The notes beneath the pieces were generated by a model. It was not told the DNA's origin, ran no database searches, and saw nothing but the letters and a program-made list of their open reading frames with translations. Both the position numbers and the translations under genes were made by a program. A DNA stretch of 30,348 nucleotides from Hyphochytrium catenoides (Eukaryota > Sar > Hyphochytriomycetes > Hyphochytriales > Hyphochytriaceae): contig FLMG01001160.1 in NCBI GenBank assembly GCA_900088475.1, positions 1 through 30,348 of the forward strand, in the 5' to 3' direction. Positions 12,201-27,267 of this stretch are shown piece after piece. The number at the start of each line of letters is the position of its first letter. Within the stretch, counting starts at the first letter, position 1.

Positions 12201-14203
12201 GAGAACCTACAACACCATAGCAGTCCTTATGGACTGCCACACCACAGGTAGAGCAGTCGTACAACGCCTCGGCTTCCCCAGAGCTATTCAGGCATACCGC
12301 ACACGCAGATGCATGACTAACCGAACGGGATTGAGCACTGGCACCGTCATTAGCAGAGGCTTTGGTTGGATTACAGCTTTGAATCGAGCTTCCGGAAGGA
12401 GGTTTGTCGATTTGTGGTTGACTAGCGAGAGGCTTACGCAGATTGGACTCCGCCATGTCTTCTTGTGAGTGACTAGGCTCCATCTTTGCACTATCGCCCT
12501 TAGAATCCTCATACCGTCCGGCGTGAGCTGGACAATAGCTGTAAGACCTAAAGGTCGTCTGTACAAAGCGGTTAAGCCCCAGAGTATACTGCAGGAGATA
12601 ACAGACACGTTTACCGCGTCAAATTGAATGGGTCTTCCCTTCTTCTGAGAACAAGTGACATGGTAGGCTGCCCTGCAAGAGGCCTGAGCGCACTGAATGC
12701 AGGCTCCGCGCTTCTCTTTACAATATAGACAAGTCATCTTCCAGCGAAGAGGGTTGACCCCTTTCTGCAAAGTATTCCATTTTACAGAGATTTACGTTAG
12801 AGACAGCGAAAGTGGCTCTCACAATGCTTATCAACTTCATCAAGGAGAATGCTTGCTTATGGAAACACCTTACCGTTGAAGAGACCTGATCCTTGTTAAT
12901 GACGTCGCCATAGAATAGCTCTGGGATAGCGTCCACACAAGAGATATGAGCCCAATTGCCATCCTCATCTCGCTTCATGGCACCACCTGTAGAGCGGTCG
13001 GTATAGAATTTAGGCAAGCTTGACACTTCATAACCTCTACCACGAGTCGATAGCACTAGTACCGGACCTTGCTCGGTGCAGAGTATGCACTGCTTTGGAT
13101 CCTTATTCGTATATAGGCAAACAGCACACTTCCAGGAACTCTTGCTCTGAGGCACTACTCCGTAGCACGACTCGTGCACTGCCACTCCACAACCAGAGCA
13201 AACATGGACTGGCTCATCATTATCTTCCTCCGCATTCTCCATCCGACAGATATTGCAGAGAGGAGGTGCTTGGGATGGCTCTATGGACGTCGCGGCCCGG
13301 CGGATGTTAGCGATAATAGACAGCTTCTTTTCCTGCTTTAGAGTGAGCGCAAAAAACCGAGGTTAGACCTGGAGCATATGGAGAAATAAAAGGGCTAAAT
13401 GGTGACAGACCTCCAGGGCTGACGTAACCTCCTTGTTTATGACAGTAGCTTCCGGCTGCAAACTTGAACTAAGTTCAAGGGGATGTAAGATAGGCGGTAA
13501 ATGGATGTAAGATATGCGGTAAATGCTAGTAAGGTCGACGAAGCCTTGCAGACGAGTAACCTGTGAGAACTAGTTTGCGGACAATTATGCAGATGGTCCA
13601 TGGTGGCACCGGGTTCGCCAGCTGAGGCTTCGACAGTTGGATTGTCAGGCCCTTGTAATGCCTCAGGCTGCCTGATCGTCTCTGGGTATCCCTTGCTAAT
13701 AGCAACCTCTTCGATATTCTTCCCATCAGCAGCAATACCAAAGACAACCAGAGATTTCTTTCTGGCTGCCTGCAAGATCGTCCGAGAGTCTGCGCGAAGC
13801 TGCTGAGCTGCCTTGTAGTAGATAGTCTCTTCCTTGTTATACAGCTCAGCATTGGCACATAGCAACTCCACATCATGGCTAAGGTCCTCCACAGTCTCGT
13901 ACGCCTTTTTAAGTATTTTCTATGGAACTTGGTCAGGAGATAGGCTCTGGGTATGCGCCTTACTACGGGGACAAACCTTTTTTATGGTGTCTAGACACAT
14001 AGGATGCTTGATCAAGTCATAGTAATCGGGAACCTGTCACTCAATGTCAGTCTCATGATGGCATAACCTGCTGGGGCAGCACTGACCTCTGACTTATCGA
14101 CAGGACGGATAAAGTAGTGATACAAGTCTTTAGCCTCTAAGGCTTTATGCACTTCTAACAGAAACTCCGTCCACAGACGGAGGCTCTCTCCTGTCAGTCT
14201 CAT
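6217..14203 (-). CDS. Multi-PHD/ePHD bromodomain chromatin reader with zf-4CXXC_R1 domain, 25 exons
   Basis: Exons, 5' to 3': 14203-14087, 14033-13977, 13919-13561, 13468-13411, 13332-13068, 12986-12874, 12764-12615, 12558-12123, 12004-11841, 11700-11419, 11208-10977, 10780-10567, 10378-10182, 9897-9642, 9540-9381, 9200-9022, 8865-8592, 8460-8041, 7918-7856, 7786-7712, 7647-7524, 7348-7108, 6849-6720, 6595-6398, 6327-6217; about 1,624 residues, all phases consistent. Domains: bromodomain 10-115 (VPDYYDLIKHPM, acetyl-lysine Asn in AELYN); PHD-ePHD units near 222-395, 456-635 and 711-880, of the BRPF/JADE type that reads histone H3; Ser/Pro linker; coiled coil 985-1058; PHD-ePHD near 1061-1220; zf-4CXXC_R1 near 1300-1356 (CHRC, CLTC, CFRC, CFCYRC); final KMT2-like ePHD near 1400-1522. 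No SET, acetyltransferase or helicase domain is visible, so it is probably a nuclear scaffold. Doubts: a 5' extension; a split into two genes around 10.1-9.9 kb (a stop at 10102 and an ATG at 9919 exist if intron 10181-9898 is not used); and an alternative end at 6038. Confidence 0.83.
7419..7507. repeat. Three copies of a 27-bp repeat inside an intron
   Basis: Units at 7419-7445, 7454-7480 and 7481-7507 share the core GAGGCATTCTA then GCTAGAGGCGGCAAG with one or two mismatches. The first two are separated by 8 bases and the last two are head to tail. They lie in the 175-nt intron 7523-7349 of the reader gene. Read through without splicing, the first unit met on the minus strand would give an in-frame stop at 7491-7489. 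Confidence 0.9.
7564..7605 (-). repeat. 21-bp tandem duplication within coding exon 21 of the reader gene
   Basis: Two adjacent 21-bp units (7564-7584 and 7585-7605) differ at one base and encode a repeated seven-residue PE(I/V)QSTV motif in the disordered stretch between the zf-4CXXC_R1 domain and the last ePHD. The length is a multiple of three, so the frame is kept. Confidence 0.85.
11563..11580. other. Assembly gap of 18 N bases in a coding exon
   Basis: The gap falls in exon 11700-11419 of the reader gene, inside the second ePHD, between GIRFIFQ and NLTTYCPKH. Eighteen bases is six codons, and the frame matches on both sides, so the true gap is probably 18 bases or a similar multiple of three. 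Neither flank shows a break in homology. Confidence 0.95.
13481..13524. repeat. 22-bp tandem duplication in an intron
   Basis: Units 13481-13502 and 13503-13524 are identical except at one base (GGATGTAAGATA then G or T, then GCGGTAAAT). Both lie within intron 13560-13469 of the reader gene. They add length to a short intron without touching its splice sites. Confidence 0.85.
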
Positions 14204-14905: not shown

Positions 14906-17900
14906 TCACTGTCTGGGTCTGAAGTGCGAGACTCGGTTTCGGTAAGCCAAGGAAAATCCATACACCGTCTGTCTGAAAGCACGCTCATTCTGTGCGGTAA
15001 AGAGTGCATCAAAAAACTCCATCTTGTTCTGTTCAGTCAGGATACTCTCGGGCACCTTGCTAAGTGCGCGCTGAATCCAAGACTAGCAGTTCATTAGTCA
15101 GTAAAAGCTGAACGTAGAGGGACTATAGGTCCATTCTCCGAGAGCCTACCTGTAACTGATGAGCATCAAATTCGGCTAGCCGCTCTAAGACTCCGCTGAG
15201 AGAGCCATTCCTATCCGACTGCACTCGACTAAGGGGAAGAGCGCCCATCGCTGCATCCATCACTGCATCTACTAAAGCCTCTCCTTCTAGGGAGAGGAGG
15301 TTGGCTACGAAGGGCTGAATACCAATAGTTAGAAATAGCTCTGTGGTACGTGGTCAGGATTTGTCTGGCAGGACACCTACCCGGTATCTCAAGTACTCTG
15401 AGTGTCCTGAAGAGGCAAGGCCCATTTGAATGGTCTTTATAATACACATATTCATCAGTGGGGGGAATTATGGACATCATAGGGCGGTGAAAGTATACGT
15501 ACCGTCTCGATGCAAGTTAGCACAGCCTTGTTTGCGTCCTGATGCTGCACCTGCAGGCCCATTGTGGCGGACTACCGGACGATGGTGTTTAGACGCGCGA
15601 AACATCAATGTTACCGAGTAGGACCTACCCTAACAACGGAGCGCAGAAGGTCTGTTTGCAACAGTGGCTCCCGTAAGTGCTTCACTGCTCGTTCTATGAG
15701 GTAGAAGAACTCTTCGACCACATCAGGGTGATTGGTGAACGCATCTAAGTCCTGCATAGTAGAAGACACTTGTGACAAGGTTCGTTTAACTACTGCAGCC
15801 CAGTCACGGTTACCTTCAGGAGCGAAAACGTCAATTTTGCCAAATCCCCTACGGCACTCATCAATAGAGGTTTATAGCTCTCAACGCCAGCAAACTCTGA
15901 AATACAGATACTGGCGCAATATAAATATGAAGAGACCGGAAAGCGACCGTATGATTGCACCAAGAGGGCTGCTAATGGCTCCAGCAAGGGTGCAAAGTGG
16001 TGCCTACAGGCGCGAACCGAGTGCTTGAATAGCCGACAGAGGTCTTCTATTACCGTTCCATTTGACCTATAGACCACGCAGATCTGGAAGGCAAGCGTTT
16101 GGATCAGGCGGCAGATACCCACCCGCAATGAATTAGACGAGTGCGTTACCTGTTCAAACAAAGGCCACATTTCTCTCATGATAAGGACCGTTGGGTGAGT
16201 CTGAGGTGGCACCACAGCAGGTGCAGCGTTCCCCAGAATGGCTGTCAGCCTTCTCAAATCATCAATAATATCCTTATTAGTCCCTGTAGAGGATTCACCA
16301 AGGAGGACTCCTAGCCGCCTTGCGATCGGTCCCACAAGATGACGTAAGGCTCCTTCAGCTGCCCTGACGTCAACCCGTGATAACACCTTTAAAGAAGCAC
16401 GTCAACAGGTAAGCCCTTAATCGCGTGCTTATATATTCCGAAAGCTTTCAGACCTGTACTAGTCCTTCCAAGAGCTCGACTTCATCTCGTAGCTGCATCG
16501 TAGGTGCTTGATCATAAATCTGAAGTACCCCTTCCCCCAAAAGGTGACCTTGAAATAAAAACGGTCAGGCCCGCTATAGGGAGTAACGCCTATTAAACTC
16601 CCTTACCACAGTCGCGGCAGAGGGACTTGACGGCCATGGCGGAGGCCGAGGACACCATCCAAAGTTTGTCCGTAATGGGTATCCCATGTAGGACGTAGTT
16701 GAAGAGTGGCAGTAGACCCTGGCTGTGCTTTTCTATCCACTCTGAGTATCTCCCAATGACTAGCGTGGCGGTGTAACTGGGAACCCCAGGGAATAGTGCT
16801 TTAGCCGTTGCAGGATCAGGACCATATGATGACTGGTACTTACCGCACAGGAAGCTCTGTTGGCAGTTGTGGAATAAGGGAAAATAATTGAGGAAGGACC
16901 TCTGATTCCTCCCTAGGCACCACTCGGGCTATGCAGCGGACACCATACAAAGCCGCCTCAATGCCCATCCACTTCTGCGTCTTAACACAGATTGTAAGCA
17001 GTACACTGCCTTGCATGGACCATTGCTAGGGACTTACCCTGCCATGCTCTTCCAGTCCTTGCCGAAGTTTCGTCAAGCAACAGCTAAGAGTCCTTGTAGC
17101 ACCAAGCACGTCTGCGCAATCCAATAGTGCGTCTCCCATCTATGAGTGTACCTCGAGTGTGAGGACTCACAAGAGTGCAGGATAAACTAGGTCCCACCTG
17201 CGTCCGAAAATGCCGAAAGTCATCATGCTTATCCGCCTTCCACTTATCGACGTCTTCAGGATATTCCAGCATTTCCATGCCTAAAAGTAAGGCAAGTGGC
17301 AACGAAATCGGTCAAATCCTGGACTTGAGGTTAATGCATGTTGCTCACATACAGATGCCCTCCAGTCTATCAATCACTGGCCAGAAAAGAGACATCCGAC
17401 TGGCCTTCGTCCGTTCGTCGAAGTTGCGGACGTAACCCAGCAGGTGGAACCAAAAGTTGAGCGTCATCTCGGATATGTCTGACGTGAAAGTTTGTAGGAT
17501 GACACGAAAGCGTGTAGTGGATCGTCAGACTACAGAAAAATGGGTGTGTTTACACCGTAAAGCCAGCCAACCTGACTCTGGATGTGACGTGCACTGCAGC
17601 ATGAGATCCAATATTTGCCCTTGCTGAACATCGCGATCTCCTGTCGCCGTTGAAAGTTGTCACCCACGTCGTCTTGTTCAGACTCAATATAACGATACGT
17701 ACCGATGATGAGCAGGATATAAGACTCCGCCATTTCTGTGAATATTCTACACAGCCCTCTGCAGGTGTCATAGTCCTCAATGCCAGCCGCCTCCACATAC
17801 ATACCCTTCAACTGCATGATCCGAGGTACTACAAAGCTAATCACCTGCCTTGCGGTTTAGACGCATATCTAACCTAGACAGTATGGTAACGAGATCTACC

Positions 17901-20695: not shown

Positions 20696-21865
20696 TCAAT
20701 AATAGTATCGATTGGCAGGATCGACGTTGGCTGTGAATTGCAGTTCCTTTGCATCCTCAATGGCAGCAACCGCACTACCGTCACAATCCTCCTCACGCTG
20801 ACTGCTTGCAGCCATATCGGTTCCAACATCGGGTCCACCACCACTGAGCTTGCCTGAATAGTGCTGAAGGCATTGGCCTTGGACCTTGGCAAAATAACTG
20901 CAGTCAGTCACCATGCAGAAGGTCACGGTAACCTGCGCATGTGCATTGCACATTCCCCTCGTCTTTGCTACTTTCTCACAGCCGCCGACTGCACAGAGAG
21001 GAATCTTCTCTTCCTTTGTTTCAACATGTGCTTGGCCAATGCTCCTCTTGCGCTTCCTGATCGCTGGCGAAGCAGCTCGCTTCGCCTCGCTAGAACTTCC
21101 GTGTCCAATGCATACCCCACCACGTTTTGCAACCTTGGTGCAGTTTTCGACCTTGCAGGTCTTTATGGTTGCACCATGGGAGATGCAAACACCGCCTCTT
21201 ACACTGCCCTTTACGCAGTCTGGCATACTGCAGCGCTTTACCTTCGCCCCATGCGCCTTGCAGACCCCTTGTCGAACAGCATACTTTCCGCATCCTTCCA
21301 TTTTGCATCTAATAACCTTCACTTTGGCTCCGTGAGATACACAAATGCCTCCTTTCCTGGCGTACTTGCTGCATCCTTCTACGCTGCATCTCCGTATGGG
21401 TTTCTTTCCATCACATTTGCTATTAGTGCCAAGAGGAGAAGCACTTTTGCAGGATTCGCTACTTAAAGATTTTTTACAGATGTCGATGTCCGCTGTTGAG
21501 GTCGCCTTCTTCATCACGGCACTAATGGCGGGCAGTTCTTTGGTGTTGCCGGCAAGCTTGGTTTTGAGAGCGGGTAGAGTGACTGCGCCCGTTGACGCGG
21601 GCCCAGCTGTTTTGCTGCCTGAGACAGCTGACACAAGGCTCTTTAGCACTTGAGCCGCTTGAATCTCCCTATTTAGCGTTGCTATGCTGGGAAGGAAGGT
21701 TCCCTGGCCACGCAAAGAAGGAGAAGTCGGAAAAACAGCGCGAGGAGGCATTGTCGAAAGACTCATGGCCTCTGCGCGGGTAGAACTAGAACTCGGTGAC
21801 AGCTTGAAAGGGGTGCTCGGCTTCGCATTTGCGGGGAAGTCCGTTTTTGGAGAGGAGAGAAGCAT
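20696..21865 (-). CDS. WRKY19-type zinc-finger protein, six fingers, single exon
   Basis: 389 residues from the ATG at 21865; the frame extends further only through a GTG. Residues 1-150 are Ser/Pro/Ala-rich and probably disordered. Six C-x4-C-x9-C-x2-H fingers follow: near 160, 187, 212 and 237 (close set, joined by HGAKVK-like linkers), then 291 and 317. Between fingers 4 and 5 lies a basic patch, KRAASPAIRKRKR, a likely nuclear localisation signal. The acidic tail ends in NRYYY. No intron is needed, unlike its neighbours. The last finger (CMVTDC to CLQH) resembles the first finger of the protein at 2200-3236 (CNFPGC to CLQH), so the two are probably distant paralogues. Function is unknown; nucleic-acid or protein binding in the nucleus is inferred. 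Confidence 0.88.
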   Translation of the reverse strand: MLLSSPKTDFPANAKPSTPFKLSPSSSSTRAEAMSLSTMPPRAVFPTSPSLRGQGTFLPSIATLNREIQAAQVLKSLVSAVSGSKTAGPASTGAVTLPALKTKLAGNTKELPAISAVMKKATSTADIDICKKSLSSESCKSASPLGTNSKCDGKKPIRRCSVEGCSKYARKGGICVSHGAKVKVIRCKMEGCGKYAVRQGVCKAHGAKVKRCSMPDCVKGSVRGGVCISHGATIKTCKVENCTKVAKRGGVCIGHGSSSEAKRAASPAIRKRKRSIGQAHVETKEEKIPLCAVGGCEKVAKTRGMCNAHAQVTVTFCMVTDCSYFAKVQGQCLQHYSGKLSGGGPDVGTDMAASSQREEDCDGSAVAAIEDAKELQFTANVDPANRYYY

Positions 21866-24800
21866 CACCGCTTCTCTCCTACTATTGGATAGATCTGTCT
21901 TGGGGATTGTAGTGTCTCACTGATGCGCAGCAGAAGGTTTGTTGTGCTGCTCTTGGATAGACAACTCGATAAGCAAGAATACACAGCCGAGCAAGAGAAA
22001 GCTGCATCAGCTTTGGAGCCCAGAGGAAGAGAAGAAGTTCCCGCTAATCCTTCCGAAGTTGGAGGCAAATGACACTGTGCATGCCTCCAATGAGGATTGC
22101 AGCAGAGTCCGCGCACGACAAGGCAGTTCTTGCTCTTTCCTGACGCCTTGTTGTTGCAGGCCCACACCTAAAGACAAGTTATGCTGGCGGCAAGACGCAT
22201 GGAAGCCCATTAAAATGCACGACAACAGTCTTGTCAACTGAGACCTCTTCCCCCAGACCGTACCGTACCACATGAGCAGTGCGAAAGCGATTGGGAGAGG
22301 TCCGACTACAGGAAGGGGAGGAAAAGTAAAGGAGCGTGATAAAAGAGCGAGGAAAAAGGGGTCGGCACAGGAAGCCAGCTGAAGAAGGAAGATGGCTGGT
22401 TCACTGTGCACAAGTGTGGCTGGAGACACTCCAGGCCTATCTACAGCGTCCAGCGTGAGCCCGATGTGAGGGAGAAGGAAAGTCTCTAACGAGAGGAGGG
22501 GAAGGGGCCAAAAGAGCTGCACGAAATGTAGAGCAATCAAGCCATCACTGGATAGCATGTCGTGACACCTAAATGGGAAACGGGATTGACAGTCCTACGA
22601 AGCCCTTGTTAATATTCGCATGTCCATGTTGGATGAGACACCCAACCACTGCTTTAAGGCTGCCATTGAACCATTATCAGAGCCACAATGAGGGCACGGC
22701 CAAGGAAGAATATGGTCTTCTTTGAACAGGAACTCGTAGGGACTCCAACCTCTTCTCCCTTCTGCTCAATAACTTTCTCTTTCCCTCCTTCCCTCAGCCC
22801 TGTTCTCTCTCTGCTGGTTGAACAGCTTCAAGTCCCCCATTCGAGTGCCCAGTCGACCTGCATGTCTGGGACTCAAGGCCCAACCTCGACCAGCACATTG
22901 TCCGCCTCCCTGGGAAAGGTTGGACATTGTTCTTTTTACCTCAGCAGAAGGGTGAGACGATCTCCTTGGTCGGGCTCATGGCTAGAACTCTAGGACAGGC
23001 CACTCTGTTGATTGAGGCACTTCTGCTGTGTGGTCCGATCCTTTTCTAAGGGAGAAATCAAGCGACTTTCCTCTGGACTGTGAAGCCTTTCTGCCGTTCT
23101 CTATATCTCTTTCCTGATTTAATTCGGTGTTCTCAAACCCTTTTTCACTCTGTTTCGTAGTTGGGGGGGAGGAACTTTCTTTATGTTTGAGGTTTCTGCA
23201 AGACCTGTAAAGTGAAAGGAAGAAATTATTTCCCGTCAAGAGCTGTCCATGAGATGATTGTCTCTCGGCCCTACAATATTCACATATTCTGCAAATGCCT
23301 AGATTGGCTCGTGGACTATCGACTTCTCAATAACAGTGAACCTATAATCTGTGTTTTGTCTTTGTTTCTTAGTCCCATAACTGACGCATATATGATGCCT
23401 CCATATTGACTTATTTGTGAGGTCAGGGCAAGAGCCATGTACGCCCATCATCCTGCACGTCCTGCTGTCCAACTGAGCTACTACTACTACTACTACAGGC
23501 TCGTGACTACACTGTACATGTACTTCATTTGTGTAGGAACTAGTAGGAAGTAAGAACTAAAGTTCCCAAGAAAGAACAGCTTGTCATAAAGGCTTTACCT
23601 CTTTTTGGTGGGAGGTTCACATTTCTACGAATAATAAGGCTGGCTACAGTATTCCATTGGCTGGCTAACTAACCGCATCATCCTTCCCGCCAATAAATAT
23701 TGGTGCGTTGAAGAGACATGACCATAGAACAACAGTTATGAGAGCACGACTACCAGGAAGACGAGGGGAGCCAATGAACGCGTTAGTTCCTAGAGGGTTA
23801 AAAACGGCATCGTCACTACTCACGATGAATCTTCACAAGGTAAGCTCATTATTCATAGGGAATATATATTCAGTAAGATCCATCACGGAATCAAGCTGAT
23901 GGTGCAGTATCTATGACTGCCGCTATATGCAGTGGCCACAGCAAGGTGATCACATGTGGCACTTGGACTGCTGTTGGCACTGTAAGACTTCGGTTAGCAT
24001 GAGAGTGCACTGAGCTAGTGGTCTCCTGACCATGCTGTGTAACTGGTGCTGCGTGATGCACGTAAGCTTTCTATCTCATATATGGCATCTACTTCCGGGC
24101 ATGACGTTGTCCTTGTGATTGAAGAGGGGCAAGGCAGCAACTCAAGTTTCCATGTAGGAGAGGGCTAGCGATGGGTTAGATTGTTTGATCTTAATAGCGG
24201 CACGCTACTGTTATATTCTGCTGAATGGAGTTGCTCATGACCATACGACAGTGGCATTGACTCTGAGAGCTCGCCTCCTGCGAATCTTTGTTGGTAGCTC
24301 TAAGTATTTATTCAGACCATCGAATCTGTACGGCCACCCTTCTGTGGATGGGTATTCCTGGCGAGGGCCTCCCTTGCTGCTTGTTCGCTGTGGTTGATAG
24401 CAGCGATACTTAGGAAGAGCTGCCCAGAGCGATCGAAAAACTGAGAGAATGCTTGAGGGTCGACTGATACGTCCTACTTCTAATTGGCCTAACAATCATG
24501 ACTGGAAACGGTATTCAGTCCTAATGGCTGGCAGCTTCCGCTACCTGTAAGAAAACTTGCCTCCTAGCAAATGCTCCTTCTTCGACGCAACCATTCAAAC
24601 CTTGAAAGGCTTCTCAGGCTGGACCTTACCCTAGGCCACTGACCTTGTGGACACATGTGGACACATTGGTTAGGTTCGATATGGGAGTAGCATCTCCAGT
24701 AATGGTAGGTTGAACAGAGGTAGGATGACATATTACGAAGCAACTGAAGAAGGTTGGCCGACCATTGCAGTGGGGGACTTATGGCCAAGGATATCGCCAT

Positions 24801-25307: not shown

Positions 25308-27267
25308 TTAGAACTGAATGCTGTCAAGCTCTTCCTCGCGCGAACCGCTAGCCTTCGGAGATGGCGACGGTTCAACCCCATCGGGACCGGGAGTTTGAGT
25401 TGCGTCAGTATTAGCCCGCTTTCGCATCTCCTCCTGCGGGAGTGAGTACGAGATAGTGACGTCAGTTCAGAACGCCTGATTAGTTCCAGACACCACAATC
25501 ATGAGCGCTTACTTTTAATTGCGACAAAAGAGAAAACCCAGCTCTTGAGTGGTTGCCTCGAACGTCAAAGTTACTCCCTACATCTAGACCTGGCTCACGA
25601 TGGAAGGAAGATTGTTTGTGGGTTGGAGATGCCCATTCGAAACCATGTTCTCTGTTCCCTGTATTATCTACATGACTCAAGCTGTCCATGTTCCGCAAAG
25701 GCGCGTCCTGGGTTGAGGCAGAGGTTACGCTGTAGGATAAACGTGGGCCATAATTGTCCGCCTGAGTTGAACGGCTGTTGGCTCTATCTGTTGACGCGAG
25801 AGGCCGAGGGTGCCCAAGCTGGCGCTTTTTGTGGCTGCCTGGCTGACCAGCTCGGCCTTGCTTGCTTCCTGGGCCTCTAGTATTATCGCGTGAGTACATC
25901 TCAACCAGTGTTATATACAGCTCCACGTTTGGATGAAGCTCCTTTAGCAAAGCCTGCGCAGAGTACTGCTTAGCCATTTTCTTAGCGAATCCGCTGCCTA
26001 CTCCTACGCGGTTGCCACACGACGCGATGAACTTGAACAAAAACTGGTGAGTTGTCCCAGTTGCTGCCAGCTCTTCGTTGGAACGCTGGGTCTGCTCAGA
26101 CTTATAGTTGACAATGATCCCAGGATTTCTGTTCTGGTACTCTTGCAGGACTTGTGCCGGAGTTTTGATACCAAGTTCAGCGCAGGCGGGCACCACACGA
26201 GGGTCTTCGACCTGTAGACGAATGAATTGACTGATCGTCATATTTTGCGAATTGTTCGTGGAGGTAGGCAACTGCTCTCCATGTAGCGGCGAGAGCACTT
26301 GTCCTTTCGCCTTCAGGTCCTGCCAGAAACCTGGGAGCAGCATATCAAGAGTAGCCTCCGCGGCTAGCTGTTTAGCCATCTTCTTGTTCCCGTACTCAGC
26401 CTTCCCATACTCAATACCATCCAGGTACACTGAGCAGCTATAAGGACAGAGCGGGTCGTCAGCTTCCTTTATGACGTACTTGGGAAGGCACTTGAGCTTT
26501 GTCATCGTATACTCTTGCAAGAAGCTGATAGCCGTCTTTCCCTCCGGGGACGGGATATCGTTCTCACCGTTTCTGAGAGCCTGCCGGCGCGCCTCCTTTG
26601 CCTCCTTCTTCTTCTGCGTCTTCGCAAGCTTCGCCGCTTTATCATTTTGTCCCTGACAGACGTCAGTAGAACTCAGGCCTGAGTCAGCCACAAAGTTTGA
26701 AGATGACCCTTTACTGGCCGAAAAGAGGCTAGCAGCGGAGTCTTCGTCCTTTTGAGCAATAGTGTCCGCGACATCTGGACCATACTCTTGCGCAGTCTCG
26801 ACCGATCGAGCTTTCTTTTCTTTGGATGACAATTCCCCGCCTTTATTTCCCTCTGTTGCATGAAAGCCAGCTCCTCGTTTCCTTTTCAAACCTAGAGAGC
26901 TCTTTTTCAGCGTCTCCATGCAGAGGTCATATATCTCTGTAAAGAGGACCCTAGGGTTGGCCGAGGTGAATGCATTGGAAAGGGTAAAGCTAGGTTGAAA
27001 CGTCCTGAGTGGGGGCGAGTGGATCTCTACATGGTGCTCTGATGGACAAATATATGGTCTGGTCCAGGTGACTACTCTGCTTTCTTGGTGGAAATAGCAC
27101 GTAGTACCACTGATGTGTGACACGGAAGTCCAGCCACGAGGAAGGGTATTTGAGAGCAGGCTACTCTCATAGTCTTGGGCACTATCTGCGTGCGTTCGCC
27201 CCTGCGCTCGATCGGACTCAAGTCCATGTTGTGGTGCGGCCTCGCCAGCAAGACTTTTGCCTTCCAT
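25308..27267 (-). CDS. DGCR8-like: DGCR8/Pasha homologue, double-stranded RNA-binding Microprocessor subunit
   Basis: Exons 27267-25513 and 25433-25308 (79-nt intron, phase 0), 626 residues. In animals this protein clamps primary microRNA hairpins and guides the RNase III enzyme Drosha in the nucleus. Domains: WW domain at 42-73 (LPRGW to VVTWTRPY), whose ESRVVTW core I recall as near identical in human DGCR8; basic stretches near 127-131 and 210-230, probably nuclear signals; dsRBD1 at about 243-312 (SCSVYLDGIEYGKAEYGNKK then MAKQLAAEATL); a connector with DPRV and PAQVLQEYQNRNPG; dsRBD2 at about 365-447 (GFAKKMAKQYSAQALLKELH). Exon 2 completes the C-terminal helix SLLSQLKEEMRKRA, the counterpart of the Drosha-binding tail. 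The Pro-Cys heme ligand of animal DGCR8 is not seen after the WW domain. The single long coding exon contrasts with its intron-rich neighbours. A plain WW/dsRBD protein is the alternative, but the order, spacing and tail all fit DGCR8. Confidence 0.9.

Follow-up and report, generated by a model that had tools for sequence, protein, structure and literature searches.

The minus strand of the window, the 30,348-nucleotide stretch of DNA analysed here, carries a gene of two exons and one intron that we confirmed, by sequence comparison, as a homologue of DGCR8/Pasha. Its unspliced open reading frame (ORF; 27267 to 25480) encodes 595 aa and holds LPRGW...ESRVVTWTRPY...HSPPL together with two dsRBD stretches. 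In the splice model, which was derived from the sequence alone, a GT-AG intron substitutes the final codons of this ORF with a second exon ending in a TAA at 25308, giving a protein of 626 aa (Table 1). The spliced coding region therefore spans 25308-27267, the same span that a preliminary description of this DNA had assigned to the gene.

Table 1. Coordinates of the DGCR8 homologue and its parts (window positions; residues are those of the spliced model)
Feature	Coordinates	Strand	Basis
DGCR8 homologue exon 1, residues 1-585	25513..27267	-	ORF, splice model, PDB DGCR8 match E 1e-30
Intron, 79 nt, GT...AG; length not a multiple of three, in-frame stops	25434..25512	-	predicted from the sequence
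DGCR8 homologue exon 2, residues 586-626 including stop	25308..25433	-	LLSQLK joined to EEMRKRA, matching the human DGCR8 tail
WW dimerisation domain and following stretch, residues 40-92	26992..27150	-	PDB and direct alignments
dsRBD1, residues 246-309	26341..26532	-	Pfam dsrm; genome search, 45.6 bits; DGCR8 alignment
Pre-dsRBD2 stretch, dsRBD2 and following helix, residues 342-464	25876..26244	-	DGCR8 alignment to residue 464
Drosha-binding-like C-terminal helix, residues 580-592, split by the intron	25413..25530	-	tail alignment to human DGCR8

Elsewhere in the window, a PHD-finger exon (12721-13242) and a Transportin-3/Importin-13-like exon (15793-16386) were seen on the minus strand, and further exons of both seemed by eye to lie nearby.

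A search of the ORF against 177,635 distinct PDB sequences put five entries named DGCR8 at the top, with E-values from 1.2e-30 to 1.6e-8; sixth came "MGC78846 protein" (5e-8), which we take to be frog DGCR8. The DGCR8 matches aligned at residues 40-89, the WW dimerisation domain, and at residues 238-464, which hold both dsRBDs and a helix, and the spliced 626-aa form gave the same leading matches. Outside DGCR8, the strongest match was to the WW domain of NEDD4L (4.8e-5), followed by TARBP2 (0.0042), and HYL1 reached 0.05 only. The preliminary description had called the gene DGCR8/Pasha and had named placement with generic WW or dsRBD proteins as the outcome that would speak against this call; with 1e-30 for DGCR8 and 5e-5 for the best unrelated match, the search placed the protein with DGCR8. 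A generic WW/dsRBD protein was rejected on this gap, as was a Dicer partner of the TRBP/Loquacious type, with TARBP2 at 0.004 only.

The WW-containing dimerisation domain is the defining feature of the DGCR8 family and identifies the family on its own (PMC3388087, excerpt). In the window protein this domain matched PDB entry 3le4 at 1.6e-8, was identical to human DGCR8 at 23 of 45 positions (51%), and reached a local alignment score of 119, which none of 1000 shuffles attained (23.1 ± 4.7); the Pfam WW model scored 14.6 bits on the ORF (E = 0.033), under its cut-off of 26.9. C-terminal of the WW domain lie the two dsRBDs, to which Pfam dsrm matched in two stretches (3.5e-11). Residues 238-464 aligned with entry 2yt4 at 1e-21, and the dsRBD region shared 66 of 198 positions with human DGCR8 (33%), with a local score of 260 against 31.5 ± 5.0 for shuffles, again reached by 0 of 1000. 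The NCBIfam match of the protein was confined to the RNase III family, at its dsRBD end, and stayed under the cut-off. Past the dsRBDs, the tail encoded across the intron, LLSQLKEEMRKRA, aligned with human DGCR8 ILSKLQEEMKRLA, a segment that lies within DGCR8 726-755 and within the DGCR8 peptide of the Drosha entry 5b16 in PDB. The tail score of 37, when the 162 C-terminal residues were shuffled, was equalled in 8 of 5000 cases (21.3 ± 3.6), which is weaker than the domain matches, and the 30-residue tail peptide alone found no match with phmmer. The C-terminal helix thus resembles the Drosha-binding tail, more weakly than the domains resemble theirs, and binding is predicted. The WW domain with its ESRVVTW core, the two dsRBDs in the right order and spacing, and the Drosha-tail-like C-terminus, all claimed in the preliminary description, were accordingly recovered, the last at this lower strength.

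Human DGCR8 binds heme through Cys352 together with Pro351, aided by Trp329; the Pro351-Cys352 pair is described as invariant across the known DGCR8 proteins and is not termed family-defining in the same excerpt (PMC3388087). The window protein retains the Trp329 equivalent at residue 68, has Gln-Pro at the Pro351-Cys352 positions, and has its next Cys at residue 116; a homologue from Phytophthora ramorum (P0002) likewise has no Cys at the heme-ligand position. Heme control of the animal type is unlikely here, as judged from the sequence, because Gln-Pro replaces Pro-Cys.

The host genome was scanned as 42,489,369 bases in 1105 contigs, with the DGCR8 gene on contig C145. An RNase III domain search gave nine matches on five contigs. 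The preliminary description had pointed to a Drosha-like protein with two RNase III domains and to Dicer as genes to seek in the host; the former was found on contig C800, and the latter as two Dicer-like genes on C381 and C961. The C800 gene was modelled as eleven exons in one frame (562 aa), with AG before each exon and GT after the ten that have a following intron, the start of exon 4 being picked to suit the reading frame. In PDB, the E-value of its protein was 8.9e-73 with Drosha, as against 2.8e-23 with bacterial RNase III and 1e-18 with the best Dicer; by sequence it is a Drosha, closer to Drosha than to Dicer. Pfam recognised a pair of RNase III domains and, at the C-terminus, a dsRBD, and the first RNase III domain is interrupted by a long insertion; animal Drosha shares all of these features. 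Both RNase III domains carry an LEFLGD motif, and the D..E pairs DCVEAL and DAFESF are present; we take these to be the catalytic acids of the two domains. Because the contig upstream of the Drosha exons is N, the N-terminal half, and with it the state of the platform, PAZ and helicase, lies unseen inside the gap. A protein of DGCR8 architecture and a Drosha catalytic half with its acidic motifs hence co-occur in this genome, as read from sequence. Compared with animal DGCR8/Pasha, the window protein has the same WW domain with Trp329, dsRBD1, dsRBD2 with its helix and C-terminal helix, in the same order and with a Drosha in the genome; it differs in its host, which the trees below place outside animals, in the missing Pro351-Cys352, and in a shorter N-terminus, the WW match starting at residue 40 here and at 301 in human DGCR8.

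We consider it probable that this gene is a genuine DGCR8 orthologue, carried by a heterotrophic stramenopile close to the oomycetes, and that its product is dimeric, grips hairpins and holds Drosha, with Drosha cutting the hairpin base. By analogy with the animal proteins, two DGCR8 copies would pair via the WW domain, the dsRBDs would clasp a hairpin RNA along its stem, and the C-terminal helix would hold the C800 Drosha of the same genome, which, positioned by the DGCR8 pair, would cut both strands at the hairpin base. A nuclear location is likewise predicted. The best reading of these sequences is that a two-part Microprocessor exists outside the opisthokonts.

The two Dicer-like genes were both partially assembled, that on C381 with PAZ (the sole PAZ found in the host genome), RNase III matches and a dsRBD match, and that on C961 with a DEAD helicase, two RNase III matches and dsRBD matches. 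For Argonaute, Piwi gave 0 matches in the gapped 42.5-Mb genome, while one control genome was positive, and ArgoN gave 0 matches with silent controls. RdRP, ERH and Exportin-5 likewise gave no match in the host genome, with silent controls and with gaps that could hide genes. Long runs of N interrupt the assembly (9.8 kb in a single stretch), so that genes can be missing from it. The negative results for ArgoN, RdRP, ERH and Exportin-5 are weak, and those for Piwi, RdRP, ERH and Exportin-5 may stem from true loss, from gaps in the assembly or from searches of low sensitivity.

Other loci of this genome carry related domains. On contig C89 (2204-3046), a dsRBD (dsrm, 1.8e-7) is fused to a Bin3-type RNA methyltransferase (Bin3, 7e-17); in animals, BCDIN3D of the Bin3 family acts on pre-miRNA ends. 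On C961 (1764-6656), a protein kinase exon is followed by an ORF with a dsRBD match, in which further dsRBD-like repeats were seen by eye, and then by a Dicer-type DEAD helicase exon; this could be a PKR-like kinase beside Dicer, or one fused gene. Single RNase III matches followed by stretches that are Cys/His-rich by eye were observed on C549 (3317-5593) and C31 (3519-4271).

Because the lineage seems to lack Argonaute, a rival reading proposes that the orthologous DGCR8-Drosha pair does not make microRNAs, and instead crops structured hairpins of mRNA or rRNA, or feeds siRNA. Besides the Piwi result, the missing heme ligand is in its favour, as are two published observations on DCL2, an oomycete enzyme likened to Drosha: in Phytophthora capsici, where it is likely the Drosha orthologue, DCL2 was reported not to be responsible for miR8788 processing (PMC11062530, excerpt), and DCL2 homologues have been suggested for 25-nt siRNAs (PMC12857978, excerpt). 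The long N runs, the presence of two Dicer-like genes, and the Argonautes of Phytophthora species (PMC3804510 and PMC12857978, excerpts) count against it, and we regard such a job as unlikely, at roughly a quarter of our belief.

The relatives of both proteins bear on the lineage of the pair. Among 8000 candidates scored, the DGCR8 protein search found at least three homologues, namely P0001, P0002 of P. ramorum and P0003 of Pythium brassicae, so that the named relatives closest among the matches listed are oomycete hypothetical proteins. Animal DGCR8 was not among these three matches, and therefore the search gives no animal-versus-oomycete ranking. The window protein was identical to P0001 at 76 of 189 positions and to P0002 at 60 of 138, around residues 342-464, that is 40-43% as against 33% to human DGCR8, over aligned spans that differ. 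A profile search with the three homologues recovered P0001 only, and not P0002; each of the two has one Pfam dsrm, and neither showed the tail helix. The gene model of P0002 has WW and dsRBD2 and no recognisable dsRBD1, possibly through an exon skipped in annotation, while P0001 aligns over both dsRBDs. A scan of viral contigs gave 595 pattern matches and no relative.

For Drosha, 613 of the 8000 scored proteins matched, and among the best 120 of these, many of which are without an organism name, the organism-named rows were animals except P0111 of P. insidiosum. P0111, taken to be of the oomycete DCL2 class, aligned with the host Drosha piece at 31% over 99% and matched Drosha in PDB at 4e-43; the motif SYVDAGMQS-NT is common to the two, and a YVDAG-like motif at the same place occurred in one of the 120 listed matches, P0111. 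Trees were built on rows from these 120 matches (13 in the main tree, 19 in the tree with a Dicer outgroup, and 10, 9 and 10 in the trees with rows dropped), picked mainly to thin arthropods and with no ichthyosporean knowingly included. In the main tree, host and P. insidiosum grouped at 96/92, and nine rows of animal type, including two unnamed ones, formed a 100/100 group without the host. Constraining the host to sit with six arthropod-type rows was rejected (AU p = 1.6e-5), as was, in the analysis with rows dropped, pairing it with P0004 (p = 0.003). The host-P. insidiosum pair reached 100/97 without P0116 and 99/98 without P0116 and P0079, these two and P0111 being long branches; with P. 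insidiosum removed, the host leaned weakly to P0116 (77/72). With the partial host Dicer as outgroup and P0004 untrimmed, P. insidiosum joined Dicer (82/96) and the host had no firm placement, which we read as long branches meeting. On these sequence comparisons, both members of the pair have kin among oomycete proteins.

One further row, P0004 from EukProt, is a Drosha by PDB match (3.6e-124) with an N-terminus that is Arg/Ser-rich by eye and a recognisable PAZ domain at 440-551 (2.2e-12), which the animal Drosha P0010 does not have; it is a possible Dicer-to-Drosha intermediate. A PAZ domain therefore does not exclude Drosha. This touches the published placement of oomycete DCL2, found basal with Drosha, yet judged more Dicer-like for its PAZ (PMC4791657, excerpt), and elsewhere found most similar to Drosha (PMC10080066, excerpt) or grouped with fly and human Drosha in a 2026 tree (PMC12857978, excerpt). 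Drosha has also been stated as not identified in Phytophthora (PMC11062530, excerpt). No DGCR8 partner of DCL2 is named in the published excerpts, and the words DGCR8 and Pasha occur 0 times in the DCL2 papers PMC4791657, PMC10080066 and PMC12857978; PMC11062530 and PMC3804510, a 2013 paper on small RNAs of Phytophthora, are not among the papers pairing "oomycete" with "DGCR8". A survey of titles and abstract starts, whose coverage stops short of preprints and most subscription papers, showed no report of a stramenopile DGCR8.

As to origin, the preliminary description had offered that a Microprocessor either predates animals or was acquired separately. Recent acquisition from animals is unsupported because the host Drosha does not branch from within them; vertical descent and ancient transfer both stand. 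A transfer of DGCR8 and Drosha from an early holozoan into the ancestor of the oomycete group, an alternative about origin and not about function, could produce the patchy presence, and we know of no DGCR8 from plants, fungi, alveolates or photosynthetic stramenopiles. Such a transfer would, however, have had to move two genes that lie on separate contigs (C145 and C800) and keep them together, and neither the host Drosha nor that of P. insidiosum falls inside the group of sampled animals; we hold it to be improbable, with about one chance in four. Our preferred reading is that the Microprocessor may be ancestral to the animal and stramenopile lineages. More tentatively, and with somewhat less than even confidence, we suggest that it predates the animal-stramenopile split, perhaps descending from the last eukaryotic common ancestor, its first form lacking heme control and having a Drosha with a PAZ, that it was kept in some Argonaute-less lineages, and that its original job was not the making of microRNAs.

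Judged from the genes under study, the host is most likely a heterotrophic stramenopile near the oomycetes. A universal rRNA pattern gave 0 matches in its genome. The preliminary description had spoken of a non-animal protist or alga; the first part is borne out by the Drosha tree, which excludes the host from animals, whereas "alga" is unlikely because no light-harvesting protein was found in the host genome with a positive control. It had also taken the flanking genes as a lineage clue, and here the WRKY19-type fingers held up, while the dehydrogenases (one a glycine cleavage P-protein, the other matching ELFV weakly) said little. The fingers form a zinc-finger array at 20696-21868 on the minus strand (5e-37), and a plus-strand ORF at 2146-2925, with no Pfam match, resembles such an array by eye. 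The presumed taxonomic range of WRKY19-type fingers counts against a host close to animals. Were the host an ichthyosporean or another close animal relative, the finding would add a species to a group in which Drosha and Pasha are already reported (PMC8061703, excerpt), and P0004, P0079 and P0116 in the Drosha trees have no species attached. Against such a host stand the oomycete names among the listed DGCR8 matches, the higher identity to P0001 and P0002 than to human over their differing spans, the pairing of its Drosha with P. insidiosum and not with P0004, and the fingers that adjoin the gene, and we think it very improbable. A generic WW and dsRBD protein grown DGCR8-like by convergence, for which the sub-threshold Pfam WW score might be cited, is negligible given the PDB gap, the matching domain order and spacing, and the Drosha in the same genome.

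Membership of the DGCR8 family is known ground, and what is new is the lineage and the missing heme ligand. The window protein also stands apart from plant HYL1/DRB1 and Chlamydomonas DUS16, which presumably are without a WW dimerisation domain. Those proteins are likewise dsRBD partners of a miRNA-making RNase III (PMC12026948, excerpt). Drosha and DGCR8 have been stated as found only in animals (PMC3388087, excerpt) and have so far been treated as an invention of the animal line, ichthyosporeans included (PMC8061703, excerpt). In a published model (PMC9098223), one Dicer/Drosha-like enzyme and a partner of the plant type are assigned to the ancestor shared by several lineages; a matched Drosha-DGCR8 pair in a stramenopile, if true, would overturn this picture. 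On the same proviso, the pair would suggest that heme control of the Microprocessor was a later, animal addition. Oomycete "DCL2" would gain a partner and a testable job, its Drosha likeness would be explained, and the question of one versus several origins of microRNAs would become testable in culturable organisms.
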